A DNA stretch of 64,000 nt from NCBI GenBank assembly GCA_034401795.1, contig CM067363.1, positions 24,929,214-24,993,213 on the forward strand, written 5' to 3'. The translations under genes and the position numbers were made by a program. This DNA comes from Chaetoderma sp. LZ-2023a. Its lineage: Eukaryota; Mollusca; Caudofoveata; Chaetodermatida; Chaetodermatidae. The stretch's first letter is position 1. Every line of letters starts with the position of its first letter. This document shows, one piece after another, positions 1,139-61,766 of the stretch. Under the pieces are notes generated by a model, which saw only the letters and a list, made by a program, of their open reading frames with translations, ran no database searches and was not told the origin of the DNA.

Positions 1139-4048
1139 ATGGTGGTTGGAATGCGACAGATGGATGTGGTGGTAATCGGTGCGGAAAAACAAATTAAAAT
1201 GAATACTACACCTCACATCGCTCTCATTGTCATTGCCATATATGTCGAGGCAAAGGAGATACAGTGGCGATATAAAGAAGAGTTTAGTGACACCGTGATC
1301 AGACTGGGGGGATTCCACATTGCGCTAAACTACTTAGCTGTTATTGGAAAGATGTTTGATGACTCTGGCTTAGAAGATCTCCTCATAGAGGCCAACACAT
1401 ATGGTAGCAGCACGGCTGCTGCTCTACTTAAAGGGAAGTCATATAATCGAGGAGTGAGGGCTCACAAATTGGTTCTGGAAGCGCTGCTGCGATTACAATG
1501 GCAGTCTTTTTCCAAATGGGTTCAACAAAATGGACAACATGAGGACCACATTACTCCAACAGATTTGGAGAGTCTGGATGAGAAAATTAAGATGTGCCGA
1601 AGCAGCATTGACGACTTAGACGCACTGCAAGAAAATTTCAAAGTGTGTATGTACGTGAATAAATTGCAACAGCTGTTCAAATCCTTTAAAGTTGAGTCAA
1701 GCTCGAAATCACACCTGTTCGCATTTTGGAACTCATATATTCATATGGTAGAGCTGCTGCTTGGATTCATAAGAGCTGAGAGAACTGGAGATTGGCAGGC
1801 ACACCTATCTGCTACTGCTGCTATGGCGCCATATTTCTACAGCATGGACAGAACCAATTATGCAAGATGGCTGCCAATATACCTTGCGGACATGAAGATG
1901 CTTCCAAGTACACATCCCCATGTACATGAACAATTCTTGAATGGAAATCATTCCGTAAGTCGCTCACACCATCCATTCAATCAAGTGTGGTCAGATATCG
2001 CCTTAGAGCAATCGATTAATTTGGATTCCAAAAAGCGAGGTGGTATTATTGGAATAACACAAAAGCCAGGAGCTCTGGAGAGGTGGTTTTTAACTAGCCA
2101 CGAGAGGTCAGCCATAACAACGGTAACAAAGCAAATGTGTGGGTTACAAGATAGTCACATGTTTGGAGTACATAAGGAAATGGGGACGAATCGAATGAAC
2201 AGGGATGAAATCGATGTGCAGAAGATACTTTCGATGTTCTCATCAGATATAATGACCAATCCCTTTAATATTGCGGAAAACGACGACAGCGAGTGTCTTC
2301 CGCTTGTAAACATTGCAACTGGCGTGGTATTGCCTAGTGAAATCGCCAAGAGACTTGTTTCCGCCTGTGACATTGGTAAGGAGATTATGGACAATTTTGT
2401 TCAGGAGCGGCTGGACACTAACACGAGAAGCTTTTGGGACACGTTGCCACACTTAAAACTTAAAACATTTGCCAGCCTAGCACAGAAGAAAAAACTCAAA
2501 ACAAATGATGAAAAAATTCACAATGTGAGATCTGACCGCGAACTATTTGGTCGATTAATTATTGCCGCAAGGTCCAGAGATGTTGATTTAAAACTAGTGA
2601 TGACGTATGAACTGTCTGCTGTCCCACTATCATTGTCACATACGGATGGTACTCTAAGAAAGAATGTGAAAAGTGTTTTGTTAAGTGAACTAGAAAAGGA
2701 AGTAAATGTTGATGGACGGCTTCCACCTGTTGACAAGACAGGCGCAACAGCTTATGTAGTAGATGGCATGGCAATTGTGCAAATGGTTAAAACTGGCGGT
2801 ACGTCTACATTTGGAGAATTGGCTGATAAATACTGGCACATCTTTACAGTTCCACTGAATCAAGAAGACTGCAACAGAGTAGACATAGTTTTTGACAGAT
2901 ATGATAGACTGGAATCCCTCAAAGCGGAAGAGCGGCTAAAACGTGGGTCATCAACAGCATTGGAAGTAAAGATTGCTGGAGAAAATACTCCCGTTCCAAA
3001 GCAATGGGCCAAGTACATCAGCAATCCAAGCAACAAAAGTAACCTGGTTGCATTTCTCAGCAAGCGGTGGCGTGATACTGGTCCAAATATGCTATCTGCC
3101 GACAATTGCGTCATTCTTGCTGGTGGCTTTAACGATGGAATGGATGTTGTTGTCATTTCAGCGAACAATTCGTCGTATTTGGAAGAACTTCGATCAGATC
3201 ACGAGGAAGCAGATACGCGTATGATGTTGCACGCGCTACACGCTTCAAAAGACCACATGCGTGTTGTTATACGGTCTCCTGATACAGACGTGGCAGTACT
3301 TAGTATATGTACGTATCGTTCGCTTCACTGTTCTGAACTATGGTTCCGTACGGGCACAAAGGACAAATTGCGATACATACCAATACATACAGTTGCTCAA
3401 GTACTGGGCCCTGGTATCTGTCTGTCTTTGCCTGGGTTTCATTCTCTTACAGGTTGTGATAGCACTAGTGCATTATTTGGAGTCGCTAAGAGAAAATCAT
3501 TCAATCTCTTAAAGTCATCTGAATGTCATCAGCTTAGCTTAGCCCAACTCGGCGAACATGTTGACTTATCACCGATTACTGCAATTCTATGTGAGAAATT
3601 TGTCTGTGAGTTGTATACCACCAGGGATGTGGGAAAGACAGCTGATGAAACCCGTTATTGGCTCTTTTGTCAAAAGAGACAAAGAAATGAAAATCTTCCA
3701 CCTACATCGAATAGTCTAAAGCATCACACCGAAAGGGCCAATTTTCAAGCTCTTGTTTGGAGACGTTCATTGCAAGCTGTTCAGAATCTTCCATCTCCAA
3801 ATGGACATGGCTGGAGCATAGTGGATGGTCTACTCAAGCCTGTTCTAATGTCAAAGGATCCTGCTCCATTTGGATTAATTGAACTCACATCATGTAGATG
3901 TCAAAAGTATGCCTGCAAAAGAACAGATCTCTGTCAATGCAAGGCTAACAATCTACTCTGCACTGAAGCATGCCTTTGTATGGGAGGTGAAATGTGTGAC
4001 AATGTTCAGCAGACAATTGTCGAAGATGACTCTGACACGGATGAGTAA
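1139..4048 (+). CDS. 969-aa protein with FEN/PIN-like acidic motifs and a CXC-like Cys-rich tail
   Basis: An uninterrupted frame of 969 codons. It starts at the first ATG after an in-frame TGA at 1121, and ATGs at 1151 and 1160 are alternative starts. It closely resembles a multicopy family of 'uncharacterized' proteins common in invertebrate genomes. Seen directly: VVDGMA (Asp542), HEEADTRM (Glu689, Glu690, Asp692), SPDTDVAVL (Asp715, Asp717) and LTGCDS (Asp774). The order and spacing (D, then E-E-x-D, then D-x-D, then G-x-D) recall the metal-binding residues of FEN/XPG or PIN-type nucleases. Residues about 918-955 form a dense Cys block (CRCQKYAC, LCQCK, CLCMGGEMC) like a tesmin/CXC DNA-binding module, followed by an acidic end. 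Lying between matched TIRs, it is probably the mobility protein. That assignment and the nuclease fold are inference. Confidence 0.8.
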   Translation: MVVGMRQMDVVVIGAEKQIKMNTTPHIALIVIAIYVEAKEIQWRYKEEFSDTVIRLGGFHIALNYLAVIGKMFDDSGLEDLLIEANTYGSSTAAALLKGKSYNRGVRAHKLVLEALLRLQWQSFSKWVQQNGQHEDHITPTDLESLDEKIKMCRSSIDDLDALQENFKVCMYVNKLQQLFKSFKVESSSKSHLFAFWNSYIHMVELLLGFIRAERTGDWQAHLSATAAMAPYFYSMDRTNYARWLPIYLADMKMLPSTHPHVHEQFLNGNHSVSRSHHPFNQVWSDIALEQSINLDSKKRGGIIGITQKPGALERWFLTSHERSAITTVTKQMCGLQDSHMFGVHKEMGTNRMNRDEIDVQKILSMFSSDIMTNPFNIAENDDSECLPLVNIATGVVLPSEIAKRLVSACDIGKEIMDNFVQERLDTNTRSFWDTLPHLKLKTFASLAQKKKLKTNDEKIHNVRSDRELFGRLIIAARSRDVDLKLVMTYELSAVPLSLSHTDGTLRKNVKSVLLSELEKEVNVDGRLPPVDKTGATAYVVDGMAIVQMVKTGGTSTFGELADKYWHIFTVPLNQEDCNRVDIVFDRYDRLESLKAEERLKRGSSTALEVKIAGENTPVPKQWAKYISNPSNKSNLVAFLSKRWRDTGPNMLSADNCVILAGGFNDGMDVVVISANNSSYLEELRSDHEEADTRMMLHALHASKDHMRVVIRSPDTDVAVLSICTYRSLHCSELWFRTGTKDKLRYIPIHTVAQVLGPGICLSLPGFHSLTGCDSTSALFGVAKRKSFNLLKSSECHQLSLAQLGEHVDLSPITAILCEKFVCELYTTRDVGKTADETRYWLFCQKRQRNENLPPTSNSLKHHTERANFQALVWRRSLQAVQNLPSPNGHGWSIVDGLLKPVLMSKDPAPFGLIELTSCRCQKYACKRTDLCQCKANNLLCTEACLCMGGEMCDNVQQTIVEDDSDTDE

Positions 4049-6904: not shown

Positions 6905-7308
6905 AATGGACATTTACAGTTTATCCATCCATCATATGACGTCATATGACGTCATAATTAACTACGTGACGTATAGGATGACATCATAATCAATGACGTT
7001 GTGAAAGACGTAGATAAGTTCGTCAAGAACGCATAGTTTGTGACGGACTAGGGGGTGTTGTACGAATTGTATGTTTTACTATTCAATAAACATTCTGTTG
7101 AATATTTTAAAACTAATTTGACTGGACGCTGTTGCTGCCATTTGACCCAGTCAAATTAGTTTCAAAATATTCAACAGCTTACCTGTATAGTTTTCACGGA
7201 ATTAATAGTCAATAAGTTCAGGGATCGTTCCATCCCACCACGAGCGAGGTGTGGGTGGAGCTTAGCTAGAGGTAGGCGGGGTATAGCTAAAACTGGAACG
7301 GTTCATTG
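6905..7308 (+). mobile_element. Full-length hairpin-CRE MITE, about 404 bp
   Basis: Order of parts: AATGGACATTTACAG left end, a cluster of TGACGTCA (CRE-like) sites with TCAACTACGTGACGT spacers, a 45-bp-arm hairpin (CTGTTGAATATTTTGAAAC mirrored by GTTTCAAAATATTCAACAG), a GATCGATCGATCC-like block, GTGGGTGGAGCTTAGCTAGA, and the right end GCTAAAACTGGAACGGTTCA. The ends are imperfectly inverted (CCTTTCCAGT type). At least ten further copies occur in both orientations. Confidence 0.8.
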
Positions 7309-14355: not shown

Positions 14356-15917
14356 CACTTGTGCAAAAGTTAAGCACCAGCAAAAACAATAGAACGTAGA
14401 AACATGATGTCCGTGCGTGGCGGGAAACAGCACACGTGTTCAGTTATGTAAAAGTCCAGTTTGAGGTGTAGAACATTACATACAGATTTAGGCGACAACA
14501 TTAGGAATTTTGTGTTCATGACCGTGGTTTATTTGTACAGAGAGAATTAGCTCTTGATTGTGAACCGCTATGGCAAGACGAAGGTTAAGTGATCGTGTGA
14601 AATGGCAAATCATAGGCATGCATACCACTGGTATGTCATGCAGAGAGATTGGCAGACAGCTGAACATTAACCATACTGTAATCAGTCGTTTGATTGCAAA
14701 ACATGGGCAAACTAACGAGGTGAAGGACAGGCCTAGATCTGGAAAACCGAAGAAGACTACTGCCCGTGATGATCGAGCCCTAGTACGCCTTGTTAGGAGA
14801 TCTCCATTCACCAACAGCAGAGTGTTCAGCCAGCAATGGGAAACGCGCAATAGAGTGTCAATGTCTACCGTCAAAAGGAGACTGTATGCTGCTGGCATGA
14901 AAGCTATGAGACCTGTCAGACGTCCTCTCCTCACTGCACACCACAAAGAGGAGCGTCTGAGGTGGTGCAACGAAAGAAGACACTGGAACATGAGATCCTG
15001 GAGACGGGTACACTGGTCCGATGAAAGTCGGTTCCTGCTTCATGCCACAGATGGTCGAACTCGTGTATGGAGGTCCAGACGCACGGCGTACGACCAACGT
15101 AACATCATGGAAGAAGTTCCATTTGGTGGAGGTTCCGTTATGATATGGGGGTGCATCTCATTTGATTGTAAGCTGGATCTGTTGACTGTACCTGGAAGAC
15201 TAAATGGACAAAGATATCAAGATTACATACTGGATAGAGTTGTGGTCCCTCATTTTGTAAATCATGCACCTGGAACCCACCCTATATTCATGGATGACAA
15301 CGCCCGACCACATCGTGCTAGAGCTGTGCATGAATACCTCCGCCAGAATGCCATCGAAACCCTACCATGGCCAGCAAGGAGCCCTGACATGAACCCTATT
15401 GAGCATATCTGGGACATTCTGGGAAACATGGTGAGAAGGAGGGATCCTCCTGTGCAGAACCTACAGGAATTAACAGACGCACTCCATCTTGAATGGCAAC
15501 GAATACCACAATGGCGTATCAGTCGGTTGGTGACCAGCATGAGACGTCGTGTTCAGGCCGTCATCCAGGCACAAGGTGGATATACCCGGTATTAATAATG
15601 ACAATCTCAAACTCGTGCACAGATGTTAAACTTCGTTTTCAGACACCATTAATGACAATCTAGCCACGTGTGTCAACTGTAGGGCAATAGTTGTCAGTTG
15701 TGTCAACGTAACCATATTCAGGCCTCGTTTTCAAGTTCAAACAAAAACATACAGTGTTTCCCCACCATCATAATCAGCATTCCTCTAGTTGCATTATTAC
15801 CTCTTGCACTAAGATGGATGGGTACATAAATGTTTATGCTATTGCTTTCTTCATAGCACATGAATATACCCTCGCATGTGCGTAAAAATAGGGTGGTGCT
15901 TAACTTTTGCACAGGTG
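14356..15917 (+). mobile_element. Complete Tc1-type transposon with matching TIRs
   Basis: The left end CACTTGTGC and right end CACCTGTGC (read inward on opposite strands) share the run TGTGCAAAAGTTAAGCACCA. TA dinucleotides flank both ends (14354-14355 and 15918-15919), as expected for Tc1/mariner insertion. The element is 1562 bp with one uninterrupted transposase frame on the plus strand. It splits the RT of the minus-strand Tx1-like LINE, so it inserted later. Confidence 0.9.
14570..15595 (+). CDS. Tc1-like transposase, DD34E, full length
   Basis: A 341-aa frame without stops. The N-terminus MARRRLSDRVKWQIIGMHTT and MSCREIGRQLNINHTVISRL is the paired-like helix-turn-helix, followed by a GRPR-like DRPRSGKPKK linker and a second HTH. 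The catalytic triad is Asp151 (VHWSDESRF), Asp243 (MDDNARPH) and Glu278 (MNPIEHIWD), with 34 residues between the second Asp and Glu, the classical Tc1 DD34E spacing. GGGSVMIWG is also present. Length equals the family norm. It catalyses cut-and-paste at TA sites and acts in the nucleus. It looks intact and may be functional. Confidence 0.95.
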   Translation: MARRRLSDRVKWQIIGMHTTGMSCREIGRQLNINHTVISRLIAKHGQTNEVKDRPRSGKPKKTTARDDRALVRLVRRSPFTNSRVFSQQWETRNRVSMSTVKRRLYAAGMKAMRPVRRPLLTAHHKEERLRWCNERRHWNMRSWRRVHWSDESRFLLHATDGRTRVWRSRRTAYDQRNIMEEVPFGGGSVMIWGCISFDCKLDLLTVPGRLNGQRYQDYILDRVVVPHFVNHAPGTHPIFMDDNARPHRARAVHEYLRQNAIETLPWPARSPDMNPIEHIWDILGNMVRRRDPPVQNLQELTDALHLEWQRIPQWRISRLVTSMRRRVQAVIQAQGGYTRY

Positions 15918-30192: not shown

Positions 30193-30301
30193 AATTGTAT
30201 TCTAATTTGGAATTGTCAGAAAAGACACACGATCTTTTAATACAAGTAAATTAAACAAGTAATTAAAGACTAACCGTTTAGAAACGAAAAATTATTTCAG
30301 A

Positions 30302-30400
30302 TGTAATCAACATTCTGTTGAGTATTTTGAAACTAATTTGACTGAAAGCTGCAGCAACAGCTTCCAGTCGTATTAGTTTCAAAATATTCGACAAATGTCC
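30302..30400 (+). mobile_element. Isolated MITE hairpin
   Basis: AACATTCTGTTGAGTATTTT mirrored by AAAATATTCGACAAA, centre GCTGCAGCAACAGC. Only the hairpin module is present. Confidence 0.75.
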
Positions 30401-30533
30401 TGTATATTTGCTTTTAAATTGAAATATGTATATTGCAGGGTGTAAGGTTAGCATGAAGAAATGCATTCGGGTGACGCGAATTGCGTCTTCATTTCAAATG
30501 GATGATGTCCCTTTTTATTTTTTATCATTTCAG

Positions 30534-32719: not shown

Positions 32720-33066
32720 CAATGGACCCTTCCAGTTTTGCTAAGCCCCGCCCACCCCTAGCCAAGCGACACCCACACCTCGGCCATGTTGGGATCGATC
32801 GATTCCTGAACTCCCTGACCATCAATTTCCTGAAAACTAGGCCGGTAAGGTGTTAAATATTTTGAAACTAATTTGACTGACCGCTGTTGCTGCAACAGCC
32901 TCCAGTCAAATTAGTTTTAAAATATTCAACAGAATGTTTATTAAATGGTAAAGACATACAATTCCTATAACGTCTCTGAAAATTAGGCGCAAAAACGGGC
33001 TATTTCGAATCATTCATGACGTCATGACGTAGTTGATTATGACGTCATATGATTGAGTGAGGCAAT
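32720..33066 (-). mobile_element. Hairpin-CRE MITE copy, inverted
   Basis: AATGGACCCTTCCAGTTTTG, CAAGCGACACCCACACC, GATCGATCGATTCC, the hairpin around CGCTGTTGCTGCAACAGC, and GACGTCATATGATTGAGTGA at the far end. Confidence 0.8.
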
Positions 33067-44639: not shown

Positions 44640-45760
44640 GCTGCTCGTTATTGTTCTTCCCAGCAGGGGGGTCTTCGAGAACAATGGGTTTTTCAGGAGA
44701 ACAAAAGAAAAGCTTGCGGAATGGAATGTTGAGAACAATGGCGCTCAGGGGCACACGCATTCTAGATAACAATGACGAACAGCGGCACACGTTTTTCTAG
44801 CTAAACAATGTCGCACAGCCACACACGTATTTGAGATTCTGCAACACTGTGGAATGTTCTATTATTTTGAATTAGTTAACCCTTAAAAGTTTAAAAGTTG
44901 TATATTTTACGTTTAAACGTAGTGATGGCGCTCCCCCCTCCGTGGTTATCTACCGTTGTAAAAATAATAAGAGAGTAATGTAAAAAAATAGAGTTTAAGA
45001 GGTGGTCTGATAATGGAGGTCGTAGGAGGAGGAGGAGGAGGGAGTATGAGGCTGAGGAGGGGTGAGGAATTACGGACCAATATTGATGTTTGAAAATAAT
45101 TTGATTGTTTCGTCGGTAACGTTATTAGTAAACTATTTTTGTTGTATATTTTGAAAACGTTTTGACTTTTAACCGTCATTACGAGCAAATTGTTTTAAAA
45201 TACTTTATATTGCATTTGCAATAACGTCAGTCATTTTAGATTATGGGAACAGTGACGAAGTGCGCGATATCTGTGTTATTTTGAATTAGTTAACCCTTAA
45301 AAGTTTAAAAGTTGTGTATTTTACGTTTAAACGTAGCGGCGGTGCGCCCCCCTCCGCGGTTATCTACCGTTGTAAAAATAATAAGAGAGTAATGTAAAAT
45401 AATAGAGTCTAAGAGGTGGTCCGATAATGGAGGTCGTATGAGGAGGAGGCTGTAAGAGGAATTACGGTATTGATGTTTGAAAATAATTTGACTGTTTCGT
45501 CGTTAACGTTATTAGTAAACTGTAGAATATTTAGAGACTGCCCGTAAGCTGTTAGTAAGCATCAGCTACCAGACAGATTAGCAACAAAATATTAAAAATA
45601 ATGTATTAATGGTATGTTCGGTTGGAATGGTAACCAAGACTTGGTGGTGATGGATTGTATCATGGGTTAAAAAAGTTAACCCTTTCACCGATGAATATAT
45701 ATCTCATTTTCATCGATAACATACAGGAAAACTGTTGAATATTTTGAAAATAATTTGACT
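44640..45760 (+). repeat. Left arm of the inverted-repeat element
   Basis: Contains the block beginning TTGAATTAGTTAACCC at 44867 and again at 45281 (period 414), each followed by ACGTTTAAACGTAG, CCCCCTCCG and TTATCTACCGTTGT. Ends GAAAATAATTTGACTG. Confidence 0.85.
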
Positions 45761-45884
45761 GCCTGTGTCAGTTGAGGCGGAATGCTATAGTATTCCTCCT
45801 CAGTTGATATTGCTGGATGATTATGAGGGCAATGCTAGCGTACTTGTTTACAAGGTATGCACGATGTACGAATATTTTGATAAT

Positions 45885-46020
45885 TTGTTGCTGAATATTT
45901 TGATAATTTGAGTGGTAGCTGAATATGTTGATAATTGGTTGCTGAACATTATGATAATTGGTTGCTGAATATTCTGATTGGTTGCTGAATAAATTGCTTG
46001 GTTGCTGAATATTTTGAAAA
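45885..46020. repeat. ~24-bp tandem repeat inside the element
   Basis: About six units of TTGGTTGCTGAATATTTTGA with variable AATT spacers. Confidence 0.8.
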
Positions 46021-46379
46021 CGATTTGACTGTGTAAATTTTAATTTCTTATTAGTCGATGTTAGGTAAGAGAGAGGTCGTCTTATAATGGAGGTTGAAGG
46101 AGGAGGGAGGAATGCTATCTCGGACACACTCTGCTAGGCATTGTTCTCCGCGCATGAGCGTGCCTTTATTCACCTGGTGGTCCTTTAAGAAAATGCAGGT
46201 GGTCGCTCAAAGAGGTGTCTCGAGGGATGAGGAGGATGGCTGACGTATGCTAGCGTATTCGCCGAGGCAACGTCTTGCGCGATATCTCTGTACGAAATAT
46301 TTTGAAAATAATTGATTGTAAGCCGCTAGTGGTTTAGTCACTATTAACCTCCTCCTTGGTTTAAGTCATTTTAAAAATG

Positions 46380-46588
46380 GCAGTCATTTAATTATTAAAT
46401 TTTCAAAATTGTTATGGAAATGGTCATCTTTGTATAATATTATATAGATAGTTTTATCTACCATATTTATGTCTTTAAAGCGTCAATCATTTATTTATTA
46501 AATTTTTAAAAATATGAACAAACTCCCAGTCCTTTAATTTTCAAAAAAAATCTGAGCGTTGCGTTACACAGGTTATAGTGATCTACGT

Positions 46589-46641
<53 letters not shown>

Positions 46642-46830
46642 ATCTTACGTATTTAAGGCGATTCATTAAAGTGGAAGTCAATTAATTATTAAAATTTCAA
46701 AAATATGAGCAAAATGTGTTCCCCAGTCATTTAATTTTTTTTAAATCAGACACGTGCACATGAAGTTTTCCTATGCTATTATATAGATAGTGTTATCTAT
46801 CGTATTTATGTCTTTAAAATGGTAGTGATT
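46380..46830. repeat. Diverged ~170-bp tandem units and (AT)n
   Basis: TATATAGATAGTTTTATCTA and TTTATGTCTTTAAAG, with following ATTTATTAAATTTTTAAAAA segments, recur about three times. A pure (AT)n lies at 46592-46636. Confidence 0.65.
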
Positions 46831-47022
46831 AATTTAGTTCCTAGTCAATGGCAATGCATTGATCATCCATGAACAATGGTGTACAGATGGCCCTTTAGAA
46901 CAGTAGCATCCATTGACCACTTTTGACGGATCAGAATGTGTGCTTGCTTATGCATTTGTGAAGCGGGTTGTTGTGTGTAAAAACTTTATTGCATTATTTT
47001 ATTTTTTGAACAGATAAAGAGT

Positions 47023-47063
47023 TTTCTTTCAAATGATTTGTGGGCCCTGAAAAGGGCCGTATT
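47023..47063 (-). promoter_or_regulatory. Histone-mRNA-type 3' stem-loop plus purine-rich downstream element
   Basis: On the minus strand 47058-47043 reads GGCCCTTTTCAGGGCC: a 6-bp stem, TTTC loop and AGGGCC partner, matching the metazoan replication-dependent histone stem-loop pattern. About 15 nt downstream lies GAAAGAAAAC (about 47032-47023), in the position of the histone downstream element that pairs with U7 snRNA. It starts 17 nt after the stop codon of the Cys-rich ORF, in the same orientation. Known role: stem-loop-binding protein and U7-dependent 3' cleavage without polyadenylation, coupled to S phase. Confidence 0.7.
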
Positions 47064-47075
47064 TTGAGATAGGTC

Positions 47076-47384
47076 TCAGTCTTCGCAGATCCGCACAGGC
47101 ACGGTTGTCAGTTTGGTAACAAACTGCATCATGTTTGCTTTTTGTATATCAGTCGGAGTATCACCGATTACAGGACACCCATGCGGATACTGTTTGATTG
47201 GTAATAGACAATAGCACTCCTTGCAGGTGTACACCATCTCTTTAGGTGTTGTTTTCTTGATCATACGCCTACAGACCCTCTCGTGTTTCGACCGTCGGCA
47301 TATGATGTCGCGGATGTCGATGGAACACCAACGATATCGCACATACCCAGTGTCTGATCCGTCAAAGTTTGTACTGCTGCCCAT
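47076..47384 (-). CDS. Cys-rich 102-aa ORF with a histone-type 3' end
   Basis: The ATG at 47384 is chosen; the frame is open three codons further but without ATG. Product: MGSSTNFDGSDTGYVRYRWC, IDIRDIICRRSKHERVCRRM, VYTCKECYCLLPIKQYPHGC and PVIGDTPTDIQ. Eight Cys and two His with C-x8-C-x8-C, then C-x2-C-x-C-x10-C spacing suggest a small zinc-binding fold. It is not a histone and I recognise no family. TATA-like stretches lie at about 47420-47447 upstream. It is in the interior of the inverted-repeat element and is followed at once by the stem-loop. Function unknown, possibly a cargo protein or the element's own regulator. Confidence 0.6.
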   Translation of the reverse strand: MGSSTNFDGSDTGYVRYRWCSIDIRDIICRRSKHERVCRRMIKKTTPKEMVYTCKECYCLLPIKQYPHGCPVIGDTPTDIQKANMMQFVTKLTTVPVRICED

Positions 47385-47569
47385 TTTAGCCAAATGTACA
47401 TTAACATTTACATTTATATCACATCGCTCTACTACAAAAAAATATAAGGAATATCACGTGAGATGAAATCTGACTGCCTAACTACTCTGCAGTTACACGT
47501 CCAACCACTTTGCAATGTTTAAACTGGAATGAGAAAATGGATTGAATTTGTATTGTTTATAGGAATATA

Positions 47570-48690
47570 TGTACTGCGCCCGCAAATCCACAACATGCAG
47601 ACTGCATGCGTCCGCACATGTATGCATACATTTTGGCGTATATGCGTATTCAAGCATGTACATATACTTGTTGCCATCCACAACACGCGCACGCAAGTCC
47701 ACATTATGCGCCCGCAATCCGCAACATGCGCCCGCTATCCGCAACACGCGCCCGCAAATCCGCAACATGCGGACTGCATGCGTCCGCACATGTATGCATA
47801 CATTTTGGCGTGTATGCGTGTTCAAGCATGTACATATACTTGTTGCCATCTGCAACACGCGCCCGCAAGTCCGCATTATGCGCCCGCAATCCACAATATA
47901 CGCCCACCAATCCGCAAATGTGGCCCGCATGTGGCCGCACATGTATGCATGCATTTTGGCGTGTATGCGTGTTCAGGCATGTACATACACATGGTGCCAT
48001 CTGCAACACACACCCGCAAATCCGCATCATGCGCCCGCAAATCCGCATCATGCACCGCAAATCCACAACATACGCCCGCAAATCCGCATCATACGCCCGC
48101 AATCCGCAACATATGCCCACAATCTGCATCATGCTCCCGCAATCTGCAACATATGCCCGCAAATCCGCATCATTCGCCCGCAATCCGCAACATATGCCCG
48201 CAATCCGCATCATGTGCCCGCAATCCGCAACATACGCCCGCAAATCCGCAAATGCGGCCTGCATGCAGCTGCACATGTATGCATGCATTTTGGCATGTAT
48301 GCGTGTTCAGGCATGTACATACACTTGGTGCCATCCGCAACACACACCTGCAAATCCGCATCATGCGCCCGCAAATCCGCAACATACGCCCGCAAATCCG
48401 CATCATTCGCCCGCATTCCGCAACATATGCCCGCAATCCGCATCATGTGCCCGCAATCCGCAACATACGCCCGCAAATCCGCAAATGCGGCCTGCATGCA
48501 GCTGCACATGTATGCATGCATTTTGGCGTGTATGCGTGTTCCGGCATGTACATACACCTGGTGCCATCCGCAACATACGCTCCCGCAAATCCGCATCATG
48601 CGCCCGCAATCAGCAACATACGCCCGCAAATTCACAACATGCGGACAGCATGCGTTCGCACATGTACGTATACATTTTAGCCAGCAGAGC
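47570..48690. repeat. Higher-order minisatellite (CCGCAA-rich)
   Basis: Short units (CCGCAAATCCGCATCATGCG and CCCGCAATCCGCAACATACG types) are organised around a recurring ~80-bp block (CACATGTATGCATGCATTTT, GGCGTGTATGCGTGTTC, GGCATGTACATACAC) near 47615, 47785, 47938, 48268, 48508 and 48655. All three plus-strand frames and several minus frames are open for over 1 kb, which reflects the repeat composition and not coding. Confidence 0.9.
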
Positions 48691-49580
48691 CAGTCATTCC
48701 GATGAAAAAATTTCAAAAAGTCTTCTGGCGCACGCATGCGCACAAGGGCGCACACCGCGGCATGCACGCAAGCACAAGGGTAGAATGTATAACTAGCAGT
48801 ATCGAGTATTAGTACGTGTTCATACGAGCGTGACCTATATTAAACCCTCTTGACATACCCTCTCCAACCTACATACCATTTTTCAGACACCACGCTCTCA
48901 CACATTACGACCACAAAGTCTAGACAAATGGATATCTGTCAGAGTCAGTCATTCCGATGATAAATTTTCAAAGATGGTCTTCTCTAGGGCTGCAAGTATG
49001 AATATTAAGAAATTCGCTATGGGTTGTCGGGTGGGTGGGTGTTGGTGGTGGGGTTAATGCCTGGTGTTGGGTGTAGGTCATAGTGTTGCACGCACGCACC
49101 TACGCACAACGTATAACTAGCAGTATCGCGTATTAGCACGTGTGCATACGAGCGAGACGTTTATTAAATCCTCATGACCCTCTCCAACCTATATGCCATT
49201 TTTTCAAACACAGAGCTCTCACACATTCCGACCACATGTCTAGATAAATGGATAGCTGTCAGAGTCAGTCATTCCGGTGATAAATTTTCAAAAATAGTCT
49301 TCTCTAAGGATGCAAGTATGAATATGAAGAAATTCGCTATGGGTTGGCGGGTGCGTGGGTGGTGGTGGTGGTGGGGTTAATGCATGGTGTTGGGTGTAGG
49401 TCGTAGTGGTGGTGGTGGTGGTGGTGGGTGTTGACGATGATAATGGTGGTTGGTGGGGGTGTTTGCCGTCGCAATGACTAGACAAATGGATAGCCTGCAG
49501 TGCCAGTCATTCCGATAATAAATTTTCAAAAATAGTCTTTTCTTGTACTATGATGAAGAAAATGGACATTTTCTTGAAGA
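48690..49580. repeat. Three tandem units of about 240-310 bp with half MITEs
   Basis: Blocks such as GCAGTATCG-GTATTAG-ACGTG, ACCCTCTCCAACCTA and CAGAGTCAGTCATTCCG with TAAATTTTCAAA recur at about 48799, 49111 and (partially) 49475. Each unit carries one arm of the GAGCCAGTCATTC MITE. G-rich GGTGGTGG tracts lie between them. Confidence 0.75.
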
Positions 49581-49589
49581 AATTCGAGA

Positions 49590-50150
49590 GTTAAAAGGGT
49601 TAAGAAAGTCTCTAGCGTACATGTAATGGCGCAACACGAGGTGGTCGCTTAGGGCAGGACTAAATTATATAGTAAAAACATGGTTATAACTTATCACTGC
49701 TCTGTAGCCAAAAGGATATATTTATATTTGAAGTAAACGGTCATCTATGATTATGCTACCACGCTCAAAATGTTGCTCTTAATTGTCGTATCTTTAAGCG
49801 TCGGTAAACAGCAATAGCCAGTGAGCGGGTACAGGCTTTATTATCGATTTTCACAAACTCTCGGCGAGGACGTTGTAATATCCCATGCTTAGAACGAGAC
49901 GGGTGGTATATTCTTATAGTATTCCTTAACACATGGCATGTTTGTATCTCGATTCAAGATTGATCTTGGTGCTTTAACATTCTTTCGTTATTAACACGTG
50001 CCGTGTTTGTAACTCGATTAAGGACCGATCCCACGGCTATTCGAAACGTATGGTTAAATCATACGCAACAAATAATCTTTTTAGCATAAGTACGCTCTAC
50101 ATACAATTCTATAAACGGAACCCTCAGAGATATAATGACCACATTTTAAC
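49590..50150. other. Element interior without recognised feature
   Basis: No ORF or repeat of note. A phrase with CTCGATT...GATC is loosely repeated at about 49950 and 50015. Confidence 0.4.
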
Positions 50151-50271
50151 CATTGTATCTAAAACGATTGACGTTATTGCAAAGTATTTAAAAACAATTT
50201 GCATGTAATGACGGTTAAAAGTCAATCAAAATATTCGACAAAAAATAGTTTTACTAATAACGTTAGCGTCA

Positions 50272-51376
50272 TCAAATTATTTTCAAAATATTCAACAGTT
50301 TTCCTGTATGTTATCGATGAAAATGAGATATAGATTCATCGGTGAAAGGGTTAACTTTTTTATCCCAGGATGCAATCCATCACCACCATGTCTTGGTTAC
50401 CATTCCAACCAAACATACCATTAATACATTATTTTTAATATTTTGTTACTAATCTGTCTGGTAGCTGTTGCTAACTAACAGCATACAGGCAGTCTCTAAA
50501 TATTCTACAGTTTACTAATAACGTTAGCGACGAAACAGTCAAATTATTTTCAAACATCAATACCGTAATTCCTCTTACAGCCTCCTCCTCATACGACCTC
50601 CATTATCGGACCACCTCTTAAACTCTATTATTTTACATTACTCTCTTATTATTTTTACAACGGTAGATAACCACGGAGGGGGGCGCACCGCCACTGCGTT
50701 TGAACATAAAATACCCAACTTTTAAACCTTTAAGGGTTAACTAATTAAAAATAACACCGATATCGCGCACTTCGACACTGTTCCCAAAATCTAAAACGAC
50801 TGACGTTATTGCAAATTCAATATTAAGTATTTAAAAACAATTTGCGCGTAATGACGGTTAAAAGTCAAAACGTTTTCAAAATATACAACAAAAATAGTTT
50901 ACTAATAACGTTACCGACGAAACAGTCAAATTATTTTCAAACATCAATACCGTAATTCCTCACCCCCTCCTCAGCTTCATACTCCCTCCTCCTCCTACGA
51001 CCTCCATAATCAGACCACCTCTTAAACTCTATTTTTTACATTACCCTCTTAATATTTTTACAACGGTAGATAACCACGGAGGGGGGAGCGCAGCCACTAC
51101 ATTCAAACGTAAAATACACAACTTTTATACTTTTAAGGGTTAACTCATTCAAAATAATAGAACATTCCATAGTGTTGCAGATTCTCAAATACGTGTGCGG
51201 CTGGACGTCATTGTTATTGAGAAAAACGTGTGCCGCTGTTCGTCATTGTTATCTAGAATGCGTGTGCCCCTGAGCGCCATTGTTCTCAACATTCCATTCC
51301 GCAAGCCTTTCTTTTGTTCTCCTGAAAAACCCATTGTTCTCGAAGACCCCCTGCTGGGAAGAACAATAACAAGCAG
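50272..51376 (-). repeat. Right arm of the inverted-repeat element
   Basis: Reverse complement of 44640-45760, including the same internal direct repeat. An additional partial repeat unit extends inward to about 50155 (ACGGTTAAAAGTCAATC, GACGTTATTGCAAAG), absent from the left arm. Confidence 0.85.
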
Positions 51377-51479
51377 CCGCACCCATAACTACTTTCATGC
51401 ACTGGCCCACATTGGCGGGTAGCGAAGGCAAAAACTCACCATATTGCAAAAGCCGATAACGAACGTTAACAGAAAACGC

Positions 51480-52400
51480 TTAAAAGTTTACCCTACCGAA
51501 CATGGGAAACTGGACATGTTAATGACCGACCACGATCTGGTAGACCGAGAGCAACAACACCACGAGAAGACCGCTACTTAGTGACGTCATCACGACGTCA
51601 CAGGTTTGAGACTGCGCCGCGGCTGTCCCGTAATTTGCACACCGCTACCGGCACTACAGTGCATCCACAAACTGTGCGAATCAGCCTCCATGATGCTGAA
51701 CTGCATGCCCGTCGTCCACTTGGTGCTGTTCCGCTTAAAAAGCGTCACATTGAGAATCGGTTAGCATGGGCAACAACTCATCAGCGATGGCGTGCTCAAC
51801 AATGGAGCCACGTTTTGTTCAGTGATGAGTCGAGGTTTTGTGTGGCTGTGGCGGATGGTAGGCAACAGGTTTGGCGACGTTTAGGAGAATGGTATGATGC
51901 AGCCAACATCATTCAGCATGATAGATTCGGTGGCGGCAGTGTCATGGTGTGGGCTGGAATCCATGAAAATGGCAAAACAGATCTTATTGTGATTTGCGGA
52001 AATTTAACGGCTCAACGTTACTGTGAAGAAGTTGTCGCCCCTGTTGTCATCCCTTTTATGCAGCATCATGCAGACTTTATGTTCCAGCAAGACAACGCCC
52101 GTCCTCATTCAGCTAGGGTCACCAGTGATTTCATTGAGGCTAACAACGTTCCGGTGCCAGCGCGATCACCGGGCCTGTCTCCTATCGAACACATGTGGGA
52201 CATTCTTGGCCGTATGGTGCGTGAGAACCATCCACATCTTCACAACGTGCGGGAGCTGGAAGCTGCACTGCTCCAGGAATGGGATGCGATTCCTTTTCGT
52301 GACATCAGGTGCTTAATTCGTAGCATGAGAAAGCGATCTACGGCGGTGGTTACAATGCCGTCGTTTGGAGATTGTGAATACAGTCAACCTGAGTGTCTGT
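51480..52400 (+). pseudogene. Tc1-like transposase, N-terminally damaged and with altered spacing
   Basis: A continuous frame from 51581 gives 298 codons, but TGHVNDRPRSGRPRATT-type coding lies upstream in a different frame, so the HTH half is broken. Catalytic residues: Asp82 (LFSDESRF), Asp171 (QQDNARPH) and Glu203 (LSPIEHMWD). Only 31 residues separate the last two, where Tc1 enzymes have 34; the segment VPARSPG lacks the usual three residues (LPW). GGGSVMVWAG is present. The C-terminus runs into non-family residues. Probably inactive. Confidence 0.85.
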
Positions 52401-52499
52401 GTTTCTGTCATGTTGGTGATTACTATTATTTCTTCTTTTCTCTAGTCAACTACAGTTCTATTCATCTTCAATGGTGATGAATTAGTCTCTGTTAGAATC

Positions 52500-53150
52500 T
52501 GTATGATTGTAAGATCCCTAGTCGATTACCAATCATACCATCTGCATTGTAGTTTCTGAAATAACCCAAATTTGTGTCATGGCATGATCTCACTATCACA
52601 CTAAAATTGCTAGTTTAGCGGGCTTATGGCTTGCCGTTCATCGTCTACCAGCCGTCCACCCATCGTCCGTCCATTTGTCCTTCATCCAACCATTGTGTGT
52701 CTGTCATTCATCAACTGATAAAATGATAAAACGTATCCCCTCATTTATCACTTTGTGCATTTCAAATTACTTGGCTGAAAGCGCTATATGGTGGTAGGCT
52801 TCCGGACTGGTATACAGAAATTCAATTGGTCAATTTTTTACGGCGGCCCTCGTGGATTTTCTGAGTTAGCATCTGAGACTCCTGACACGATATCTCTATC
52901 ATAAGCTCCTAGACAGTCTAACCAAAATGATATCGGCCATTCATCGTAGCCTATCTGATAAAGAAAGCTACGCGTATCCGTCCAGTCCCGCGTTCAGTAT
53001 TGCTTTCGTAGCATTCACCAGGCAGATTAACCTAGACTAATCTGGCATTATAATCCCAACTCTGACATCTATCTCAACAGAAGTTTGGAGGGTTGAAAAC
53101 ATTGTTATTCGTATAATAAATTTTAATTTGATGTTATTTGAAAGCTATCA
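52500..53150. other. Intergenic stretch without recognised gene
   Basis: Contains a short GTCCACCCATCGTCCGTCC tract (about 52653) and nothing else that I can support. Confidence 0.4.
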
Positions 53151-53159
53151 TAAAGGATT

Positions 53160-53240
53160 CCTGTTGAGTATTTTGAAACTAATTTTACTGGAAGCTGTTG
53201 CTGGCTTACTCAAATAACTGTTAAAACATTCGATAACTTT
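53160..53240 (+). mobile_element. Short, diverged MITE hairpin remnant
   Basis: CTGTTGAGTATTTTGAAACT, GGAAGCTGTTGCTGG, then AACTGTTAAAACATTC: a shortened hairpin module. Confidence 0.55.
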
Positions 53241-53500
53241 CTTACTTGATTGCTTTCAAGCCTGGTTACTGATATTTCAGGTGTTAACAGGTTCACTATA
53301 ATGTATCCCATATTTTTTCTTCATACTGGATGAAAAGGGAATTGTGGGAAATCTTTGGCCGGTGTACTTTAACCAGTGGTGGGTTTTTTCCAAGTGCGAG
53401 GCCCCCTTCAAGTGCGAGGCCCTAGGCTACTGCCTCGTTAGCCTCGTGGATAATCCGCCCCTGTGTACTTATAGGAGCTCAAACAGTACAAGTGTCCACA

Positions 53501-53756
53501 ATGGACCATTCCAGTTTTAGCTATGCCCCGCCCATCTCTAGCCAAGTCAAATTAGTTTCAAAATATTCAACAGCATGTTTATTAGATAGTAGAGACATAC
53601 AATTCTTGCAACGTGTCGGACTATTAAGAGTTAAAGACGGGCCTAATAGAATCAATTATGACGTAATGATTATGACGTCATCCTACACACCGATTAGCTG
53701 ATTATGACGTCATATGACGTCAGGTTGATAGATAAATACTCCGCAAAGGTGAATTG
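53501..53756 (-). mobile_element. Hairpin-CRE MITE copy with internal deletion
   Basis: AATGGACCATTCCAGTTTTA, then directly AGTCAAATTAGTTTCAAAAT (middle deleted), GACGTCATCCTACAC sites and the GCAAAGGTGAATT right end. Confidence 0.8.
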
Positions 53757-61368: not shown

Positions 61369-61766
61369 AATTCACCTTTCCAGTCCATCCGTATATCATA
61401 TGATGTCATATGTCATCTTAATCAACTAAGTGACGTGTCCGATGGCATCAAAATCTTGACATCATGAATGATTCGATATAGCCTGTCTTAAATACTTAAT
61501 AGTCTGACACGTTGTACGAATTGGTATGTATTTGCTATTTGATAAACCTGCTGTTGAATATTTTGAAACTAATTTGACTGGACGCTGTTGCTACAACAGC
61601 TCCCAGTCAAATTTGTTTCAATATATTCATTAGCTTGCCTGTATAGTTTTCTGGAAATTGAAAGTCAGGGAGTTTAGGGGTTGATCGATCCCAACACGAG
61701 TGACGTGTGGGTGGGGCTTAGCTAGAGAGGGGCGGAGCATAGTCGCTGAAACTGGAAAGGTCCATT
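61369..61766 (+). mobile_element. Hairpin-CRE MITE, full length, with clearest ends
   Basis: Left end AATTCACCTTTCCAGTCCA and right end CTGGAAAGGTCCATT give inverted termini (AAT-x-x-ACCTTTCCAG). Contains the hairpin around GGACGCTGTTGCTACAACAG and the GTGTGGGTGGGGCTTAGCTA module. 398 bp. Confidence 0.85.

Follow-up and report, generated by a model that had tools for sequence, protein, structure and literature searches.

A Maverick/Polinton-type element of Chaetoderma probably carries a small Cys-rich gene ending in the host's histone 3' processing signal

In histone mRNA, SLBP binds a 3' stem-loop, the U7 small nuclear ribonucleoprotein (snRNP) pairs with a downstream element, and CPSF73 cuts a few bases past the stem. 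The resulting mRNA lacks poly(A); SLBP takes part in its translation, and it is degraded when S phase ends. The pathway is generally regarded as nearly exclusive to histones. Here we analyze a 64,000-nucleotide stretch of the caudofoveate mollusk Chaetoderma sp. LZ-2023a (assembly GCA_034401795.1, contig CM067363.1, positions 24,929,214 to 24,993,213; hereafter the window). It contains a copy of a multicopy mobile element with a short Cys-rich open reading frame (ORF) that is followed by a stem-loop and a downstream element of the histone type. We consider it probable that this Maverick/Polinton-type element, whose complete copies are non-autonomous, carries a small Cys-rich gene that ends in the histone 3' processing signal of its host.

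The closest described case is that of the Tm1-HH elements of Meloidogyne root-knot nematodes, which exist in several copies and whose composite inverted repeats enclose a histone hairpin (PMC3169594). Tm1 elements have no obvious coding potential, measure about 0.9-1.2 kb, generate 9-bp duplications, and show kinship to Phantom/Mutator-type transposases. The authors of that study proposed that host sequence had been acquired and did not settle whether the hairpin is under selection. The present element is likewise a multicopy, non-autonomous DNA element in which composite inverted repeats flank a histone hairpin. It differs from Tm1-HH in its 6-bp duplications, its Maverick-type ends, and its larger complete copies (5.0 and 6.5 kb). 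It also keeps an ORF before the hairpin, and its downstream element is shown to match host histone genes. A first-pass annotation of the window had held that replication-dependent 3' ends are essentially confined to histones. This does not hold wholly, as Tm1-HH and the Meloidogyne Cg-1 transcript are published non-histone carriers of the hairpin (PMC3169594). That paper was the only one in the literature searched that joins a mobile element to a histone hairpin; subscription papers were mostly outside the scope of the search and other cases may exist.

Vertebrate Mavericks have ends of the form 5'-(AGT)2//(ACT)2-3' and 6-bp duplications (PMC8097293). IS3EU elements usually make 6-bp target duplications too, but have TA...TA ends (PMC10045372). 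The present element resembles Maverick/Polinton elements in its AGTAGT...ACTACT ends, 6-bp duplications, and long inverted repeats. It differs from them in that the two complete copies and the window copy hold no polymerase-sized frame, and in that it carries the Cys-rich ORF and its histone 3' end, with an additional C2H2/acidic ORF in most loci.

The histone-type 3' end and the host histone genes

In the window copy, GGCCCTTTTCAGGGCC starts 17 nt past the TGA of the Cys-rich ORF on the same, minus strand (spacing read from the sequence), just where the first-pass annotation had placed a canonical stem-loop. It is followed by CACAAATCATT, then by TGAAAGAAAACTCTTTATCTG, and then by a pair of AATAAA signals (Table 1). 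We observed that this is the sole site in the window that fits the canonical stem-loop pattern with 0 mismatches; up to 3 mismatches gave 7 sites compared to 6.34 expected. The predicted fold is a 6-bp stem with a UUUC loop. Markov simulations (10 Mb each; orders 1, 2, and 3) yielded 0, 0, and 2 such stem-loops, none of them with the downstream core.

We regard comparison with the host's own histone genes as the decisive evidence for the signal, at the level of sequence. The genome has 63 histone-domain matches, and its histone genes are clustered in a repeat of about 6.3 kb. We read the 3' ends of the cluster H3 and H4, H2B, and an isolated H3, all located by tblastn, as well as of H2A, which was recognized by its end. 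All five genes carry GGCCCTTTTCAGGGCC followed by a 12-nt spacer. The downstream element is CGAAAGAGATCTCTTTATCTG in H4; both H3 genes agree with this form at 20/21 positions, H2B at 17/21 (ungapped), and H2A at all 19 bases read. Compared to the H4 form, the element family majority matches at 20/21 positions and the window copy at 18/21, which bears out the earlier proposal of a histone downstream element at this position. Matches at 19 or 20 positions were found in 49/62 element copies. In the alignment of copies, the family majority reads GAAAGAGAAC, of which the window's GAAAGAAAAC is a variant. When 20,000 random 45-nt stretches of the window were scored in the same way, four reached 18 matches, presumably because they were drawn from the site itself, and the rest had 15 or less.

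The element thus shares with host replication-dependent histone genes an identical stem-loop and a near-identical downstream element, and differs from them in encoding a protein that is not a histone. The spacer between the two signals is 11 nt in the element family compared to 12 nt in the histone genes. The base 3' of the stem is C in the element and A in all five histone genes, and the bases 5' of the stem are AACAC in the element and CCAAC in the five genes. Because the spacers and outer sequences vary among the histone genes and between these and the element, the agreement is confined to the parts that the processing machinery is known to read. The cis elements needed for histone-type processing are present in the host's own form.

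A genome-wide search for the stem-loop followed by GAAAGAGANCTC at 8-18 nt returned 373 sites, and the reversed pattern returned 0. Among the first 100 of these sites (contigs C1 to C6, with the histone cluster contigs outside), 99 had the element spacer or a close variant by hand count, and the remaining one belonged to another gene (L169). The stretch between stop codon and stem-loop resembles the H2B 3' untranslated region (P = 0.004 compared to 23-mers of the window, P = 0.0125 compared to shuffles; five genes tried, uncorrected). A histone gene, perhaps H2B, is the probable source of the signal, which would then have been retained as the element spread; the resemblance to H2B is suggestive only.

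Table 1. Features of the element copy in the window
Feature	Position	Strand	Basis
102-codon Cys-rich ORF (ATG at 47384, TGA 47078-47076)	47076..47384	-	Genomic copies mostly without stop; pN/pS 0.33
Histone-type 3' stem-loop GGCCCTTTTCAGGGCC	47043..47058	-	Exact pattern match, fold, and identity to host histone stem-loops
Histone downstream element, window copy TGAAAGAAAACTCTTTATCTG	47011..47031	-	18/21 compared to host H4 element
Ordinary poly(A) signals, two AATAAA (first bases 47003 and 46990)	46985..47003	-	Sequence
Left arm, long composite terminal inverted repeat, outermost bases (ACTACT end) missing	44640..45758	+	Arm alignment
Right arm, terminal inverted repeat (arm alignment reaches 51377; element ends in ...CCCATAACTACT at 51393)	50272..51393	-	Arm alignment
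G+C-rich minisatellite inside element	47575..48643		Repeat scan; similar repeats in other long copies

A small second hairpin can form just 5' of the stem-loop in the element (TGAGA/TCTCA, window 47059-47078). By eye, one can also form in the same place in the H2B 3' untranslated region (TCGAG/CTCGA; L165).

Genomic copies, the Cys-rich gene, and the mobile element

Taken alone, the window gives reason to doubt the Cys-rich ORF. By chance, 64 kb should hold 5.77 ATG ORFs with a length of 102 aa or more, this one has no codon-position bias, and 4.8% of 975 chance ORFs of the same size contain 8 Cys or more. This doubt is overturned by the genomic copies. We searched 2.44 Gb in 2753 contigs, obtained 976 first-look candidates, and scored the best 150. 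All of these 150 span at least residues 2-101 at 89-100% identity; a stop lies inside the ORF in 8 and 142 have none. They are spread over contigs C1 to C17 and some small contigs. The pooled ratio of nonsynonymous to synonymous polymorphism (pN/pS) was 0.33 in 22 copies, a value that overstates constraint, as the copies were picked by protein similarity.

The ORF had been called non-histone and Cys-rich, and we indeed found no histone match in Pfam, where nothing exceeded the cut-off. A search of 5.8 billion proteins gave no candidate relative; as a control, two other ORFs of the window gave many relatives in this search, animal ones included. PDB gave no match, viral and prokaryote contigs yielded no relatives, and a single-sequence AlphaFold model had a mean predicted local distance difference test (pLDDT) score of 36.8. 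The product is perhaps a metal-binding protein. A possible likeness to the piggyBac C-terminal Cys-rich domain had no support from Pfam and was dropped.

We aligned 62 copies. Their majority sequence has the signal, with the stop-to-stem gap again at 17 nt, so the stem-loop and downstream element that the first-pass annotation saw at one locus recur across the family. The stem-loop is exact in 35/62 copies, all six stem pairs are kept in 44/62, and the UUUC loop in 57/62. The downstream core [GA]AAAGA is kept in 50/62, and 29/62 have both the exact stem-loop and the core. Counting as shared any variant present in at least 3 copies, over non-CpG columns, we found shared variants in 3/51 columns of the block that starts just past the stop and runs through the downstream core, compared to 38/143 columns beyond it (P = 0.0012). 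As far as the alignment reaches, these copies show that the ancestral, multiplying sequence carried the signal.

The window copy spans 44640-51393. Its arms are about 1.1 kb long, are built of repeated units, and are identical at 1052/1120 columns (94%). In the two copies for which both ends were obtained, these read AGTAGT...ACTACT, and both copies are flanked by perfect 6-bp target duplications: CATCAG in L090 (6549 bp) and CTCGTA in L101 (4987 bp). The window copy has the same right end, lacks the left end, and shows no visible target duplication. Judged by its ends, 6-bp duplications, and long inverted repeats, the element is of the Maverick/Polinton type, in agreement with the earlier placement of the gene in a mobile element. 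When examined, neither a 9-bp target duplication flanking the window copy nor insertion of the element into the neighboring Tc1 element was supported. Beyond these structural marks, Maverick/Polinton elements are characterized by genes for a protein-primed polymerase, an integrase, and a capsid. Apart from minisatellite ones, frames of at least 140 codons are absent from L090, L101, and the window copy, which are therefore non-autonomous. No exact match of an inverted-repeat stretch was found in viral or prokaryote contigs.

A second ORF of about 205 codons, with a C2H2 finger and an acidic stretch, is present on the same strand, at least as remains, in 18/21 long loci. Its distance upstream from the Cys-rich ORF is about 1.8-4 kb, and the window copy lacks it. 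By hand count, AATAAA occurs within 130 nt after its stop in 17/18 loci, and no stem-loop was seen there. The histone end is therefore a property of a single gene rather than of the element as a whole.

Proposed processing and its alternatives

From these sequence features we infer SLBP/U7 processing and S-phase coupling of the element's gene. In the nascent RNA, the stem-loop would be bound by SLBP and the downstream element would pair with the U7 snRNP. A cut a few bases 3' of the stem would then leave a short, non-polyadenylated mRNA produced chiefly during S phase, and the AATAAA pair may act as a fallback when the histone pathway is off. As a guess, a Maverick-type element would benefit by having its protein made while DNA replicates.

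Several observations weigh against the signal itself or against this reading. Within the window, short hairpins are 4-5 times more frequent than under a Markov null (84 compared to about 20), and hairpins with G+C-rich stems number 10 compared to 1.9. The end-to-end alignment to Rfam RF00032 scores 26.5 bits, under the curated cut-off of 34. A window-wide Rfam scan gave RF00032 an E-value of 0.0029, and seven microRNA-family matches, which we take to be spurious, had lower E-values. Because of the hairpin enrichment and the sub-cut-off score, window statistics alone are not decisive as to whether the signal is real. Across the 62 copies, non-CpG sites of the stem-loop show a per-site variation of 0.0294, above the 0.0181 of third codon positions. 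Given this rate and the limited number of exact stem-loops, many copies may no longer be cut the histone way. Conservation in the 21 long copies falls gradually past the downstream element. Because the 62 aligned copies were all picked for their protein similarity to the window ORF, the ORF appears less changed than it is. The window copy differs from the majority at 7 amino acids and at 0 silent sites and looks relaxed. No homologue of the ORF was found outside the host genome, in collections that are poor in animal genomes. The copy data by themselves do not prove present selection on the signal. Finally, the AATAAA pair begins 72 and 85 nt after the stop, and polyadenylated read-through to it is possible.

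In one alternative, the mRNA is otherwise polyadenylated and the stem-loop serves it for SLBP binding or stability, a dual ending like that of mussel orphon H1 genes. We judge this unlikely, although it deserves serious consideration. A U7-type downstream element has been kept, and such an element serves cleavage and not SLBP binding as such. On the other side, the stem-loop, the downstream element, and the starts of both AATAAA all lie no more than 90 nt from the stop, and mussel orphon H1 genes are noted to contain a poly(A) signal (PMC6210712). A dual ending would fit this compact arrangement.

Pack-MULEs capture host fragments. The present element may similarly have taken a histone 3' end and spread it unused, with its mRNA ending at the AATAAA pair. 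The weak extra similarity to the H2B 3' untranslated region before the stem-loop and the loss of the exact stem-loop in 27/62 copies, with AATAAA signals downstream, are as such passive capture would have them. However, little histone sequence exists outside the two signals, both of which are kept almost exactly, as use would give. The window contains no histone coding remnant (best tblastn E-value 1.0), and the block from stop to downstream core has fewer shared variants than the sequence beyond. We consider passive capture rather improbable.

The 16-mer of the stem-loop also occurs in 65 viral contigs, in many of which it looks terminator-like by eye; one (L053) has a CAAGAAA-like match further down and none has GAAAGA. 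The stem was found in none of 16 viral contigs with a relaxed half-site. A chance palindrome beside a chance ORF might draw on these contigs, the enriched hairpins, the number of ORFs of this size expected, and the absence of codon-position bias, but it is refuted by the many copies with both features and by the 20/21 match to the host downstream element, and we give it almost no credence.

Histone-type processing of the Cys-rich mRNA remains our preferred reading. In L108, a 534-codon frame on the minus strand (L108:8020-9621) is a fragment of a viral-type polymerase (DNA_pol_B_2, PF03175; E-value 3.2e-21). It is found some 3.2 kb beyond the stem-loop and on the strand opposite to the Cys-rich gene, and we count it in favor of a Maverick-type element. 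Such a fragment occurs in 1/21 long loci, and tblastn with its first 80 residues found none in the others. The L108 copy diverges from other copies some 740 nt downstream of its ATG and was read short of its ends; for this reason, the polymerase may instead be part of a neighboring element, which counts against the reading. We tentatively entertain, as a possibility somewhat short of an even chance, that a virus-like Maverick-type lineage put one gene under host histone 3' processing, yielding a non-polyadenylated, S-phase-limited mRNA, and that a polymerase-bearing member may share this gene. L108 also has a further Cys-rich frame of 180 codons, on the polymerase strand between the Cys-rich gene and the polymerase.

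Neighboring observations and significance

The window has two Tc1-type transposase ORFs (51581-52477 and 14570-15595). The first starts about 190 bp beyond the element's right end and is apparently cut on its 5' side. The best-scoring named relatives of a window Tc1 transposase are gastropod (Littorina, Batillaria), with weaker ones in a pseudoscorpion. As Tc1 elements pass between species, this affinity is weak evidence on the lineage of the host. A 969-aa open frame at 1139-4048 has relatives in amphioxus, cnidarian, and holothurian records and weak matches to DUF6589 and CXC. A short dispersed repeat around CTGTTGAATATTTTGAAAATAATTTGACT occurs at 7069-7196, 30292-30447, 32845-32959, 53137-53578, 61524-61659, and other places in the window; the inverted repeats of the element carry it as well, at their inner ends.

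The separate gene among the listed genomic sites, L169 (G000:C3:49853380-49854250), is a second non-histone ORF of about 197 aa. It has an exact histone stem-loop 24 nt past its TAG, followed by CGAAAGAGATCTC, and lacks the element spacer. Its product has a weak likeness to GDSL lipases (Pfam E-value 0.03, below cut-off) and no histone match by Pfam. Because L169 has the same ending, our data suggest that non-histone genes have adopted the histone ending more than once in this genome.

The elements may compete with histone genes for SLBP and U7, as at least 99 intact element signals were listed compared to 63 histone-domain matches. The locus presents a non-histone gene with a full host-specific signal, stem-loop and U7-type element together, in many copies, and the ordinary-ended C2H2 gene of the same element provides a built-in control. 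Whether a mobile element can take over the histone pathway thus becomes a question open to direct test in an animal. Viewed alongside Tm1-HH, which is a different kind of element and occurs in nematodes, these results suggest that such adoption may recur.
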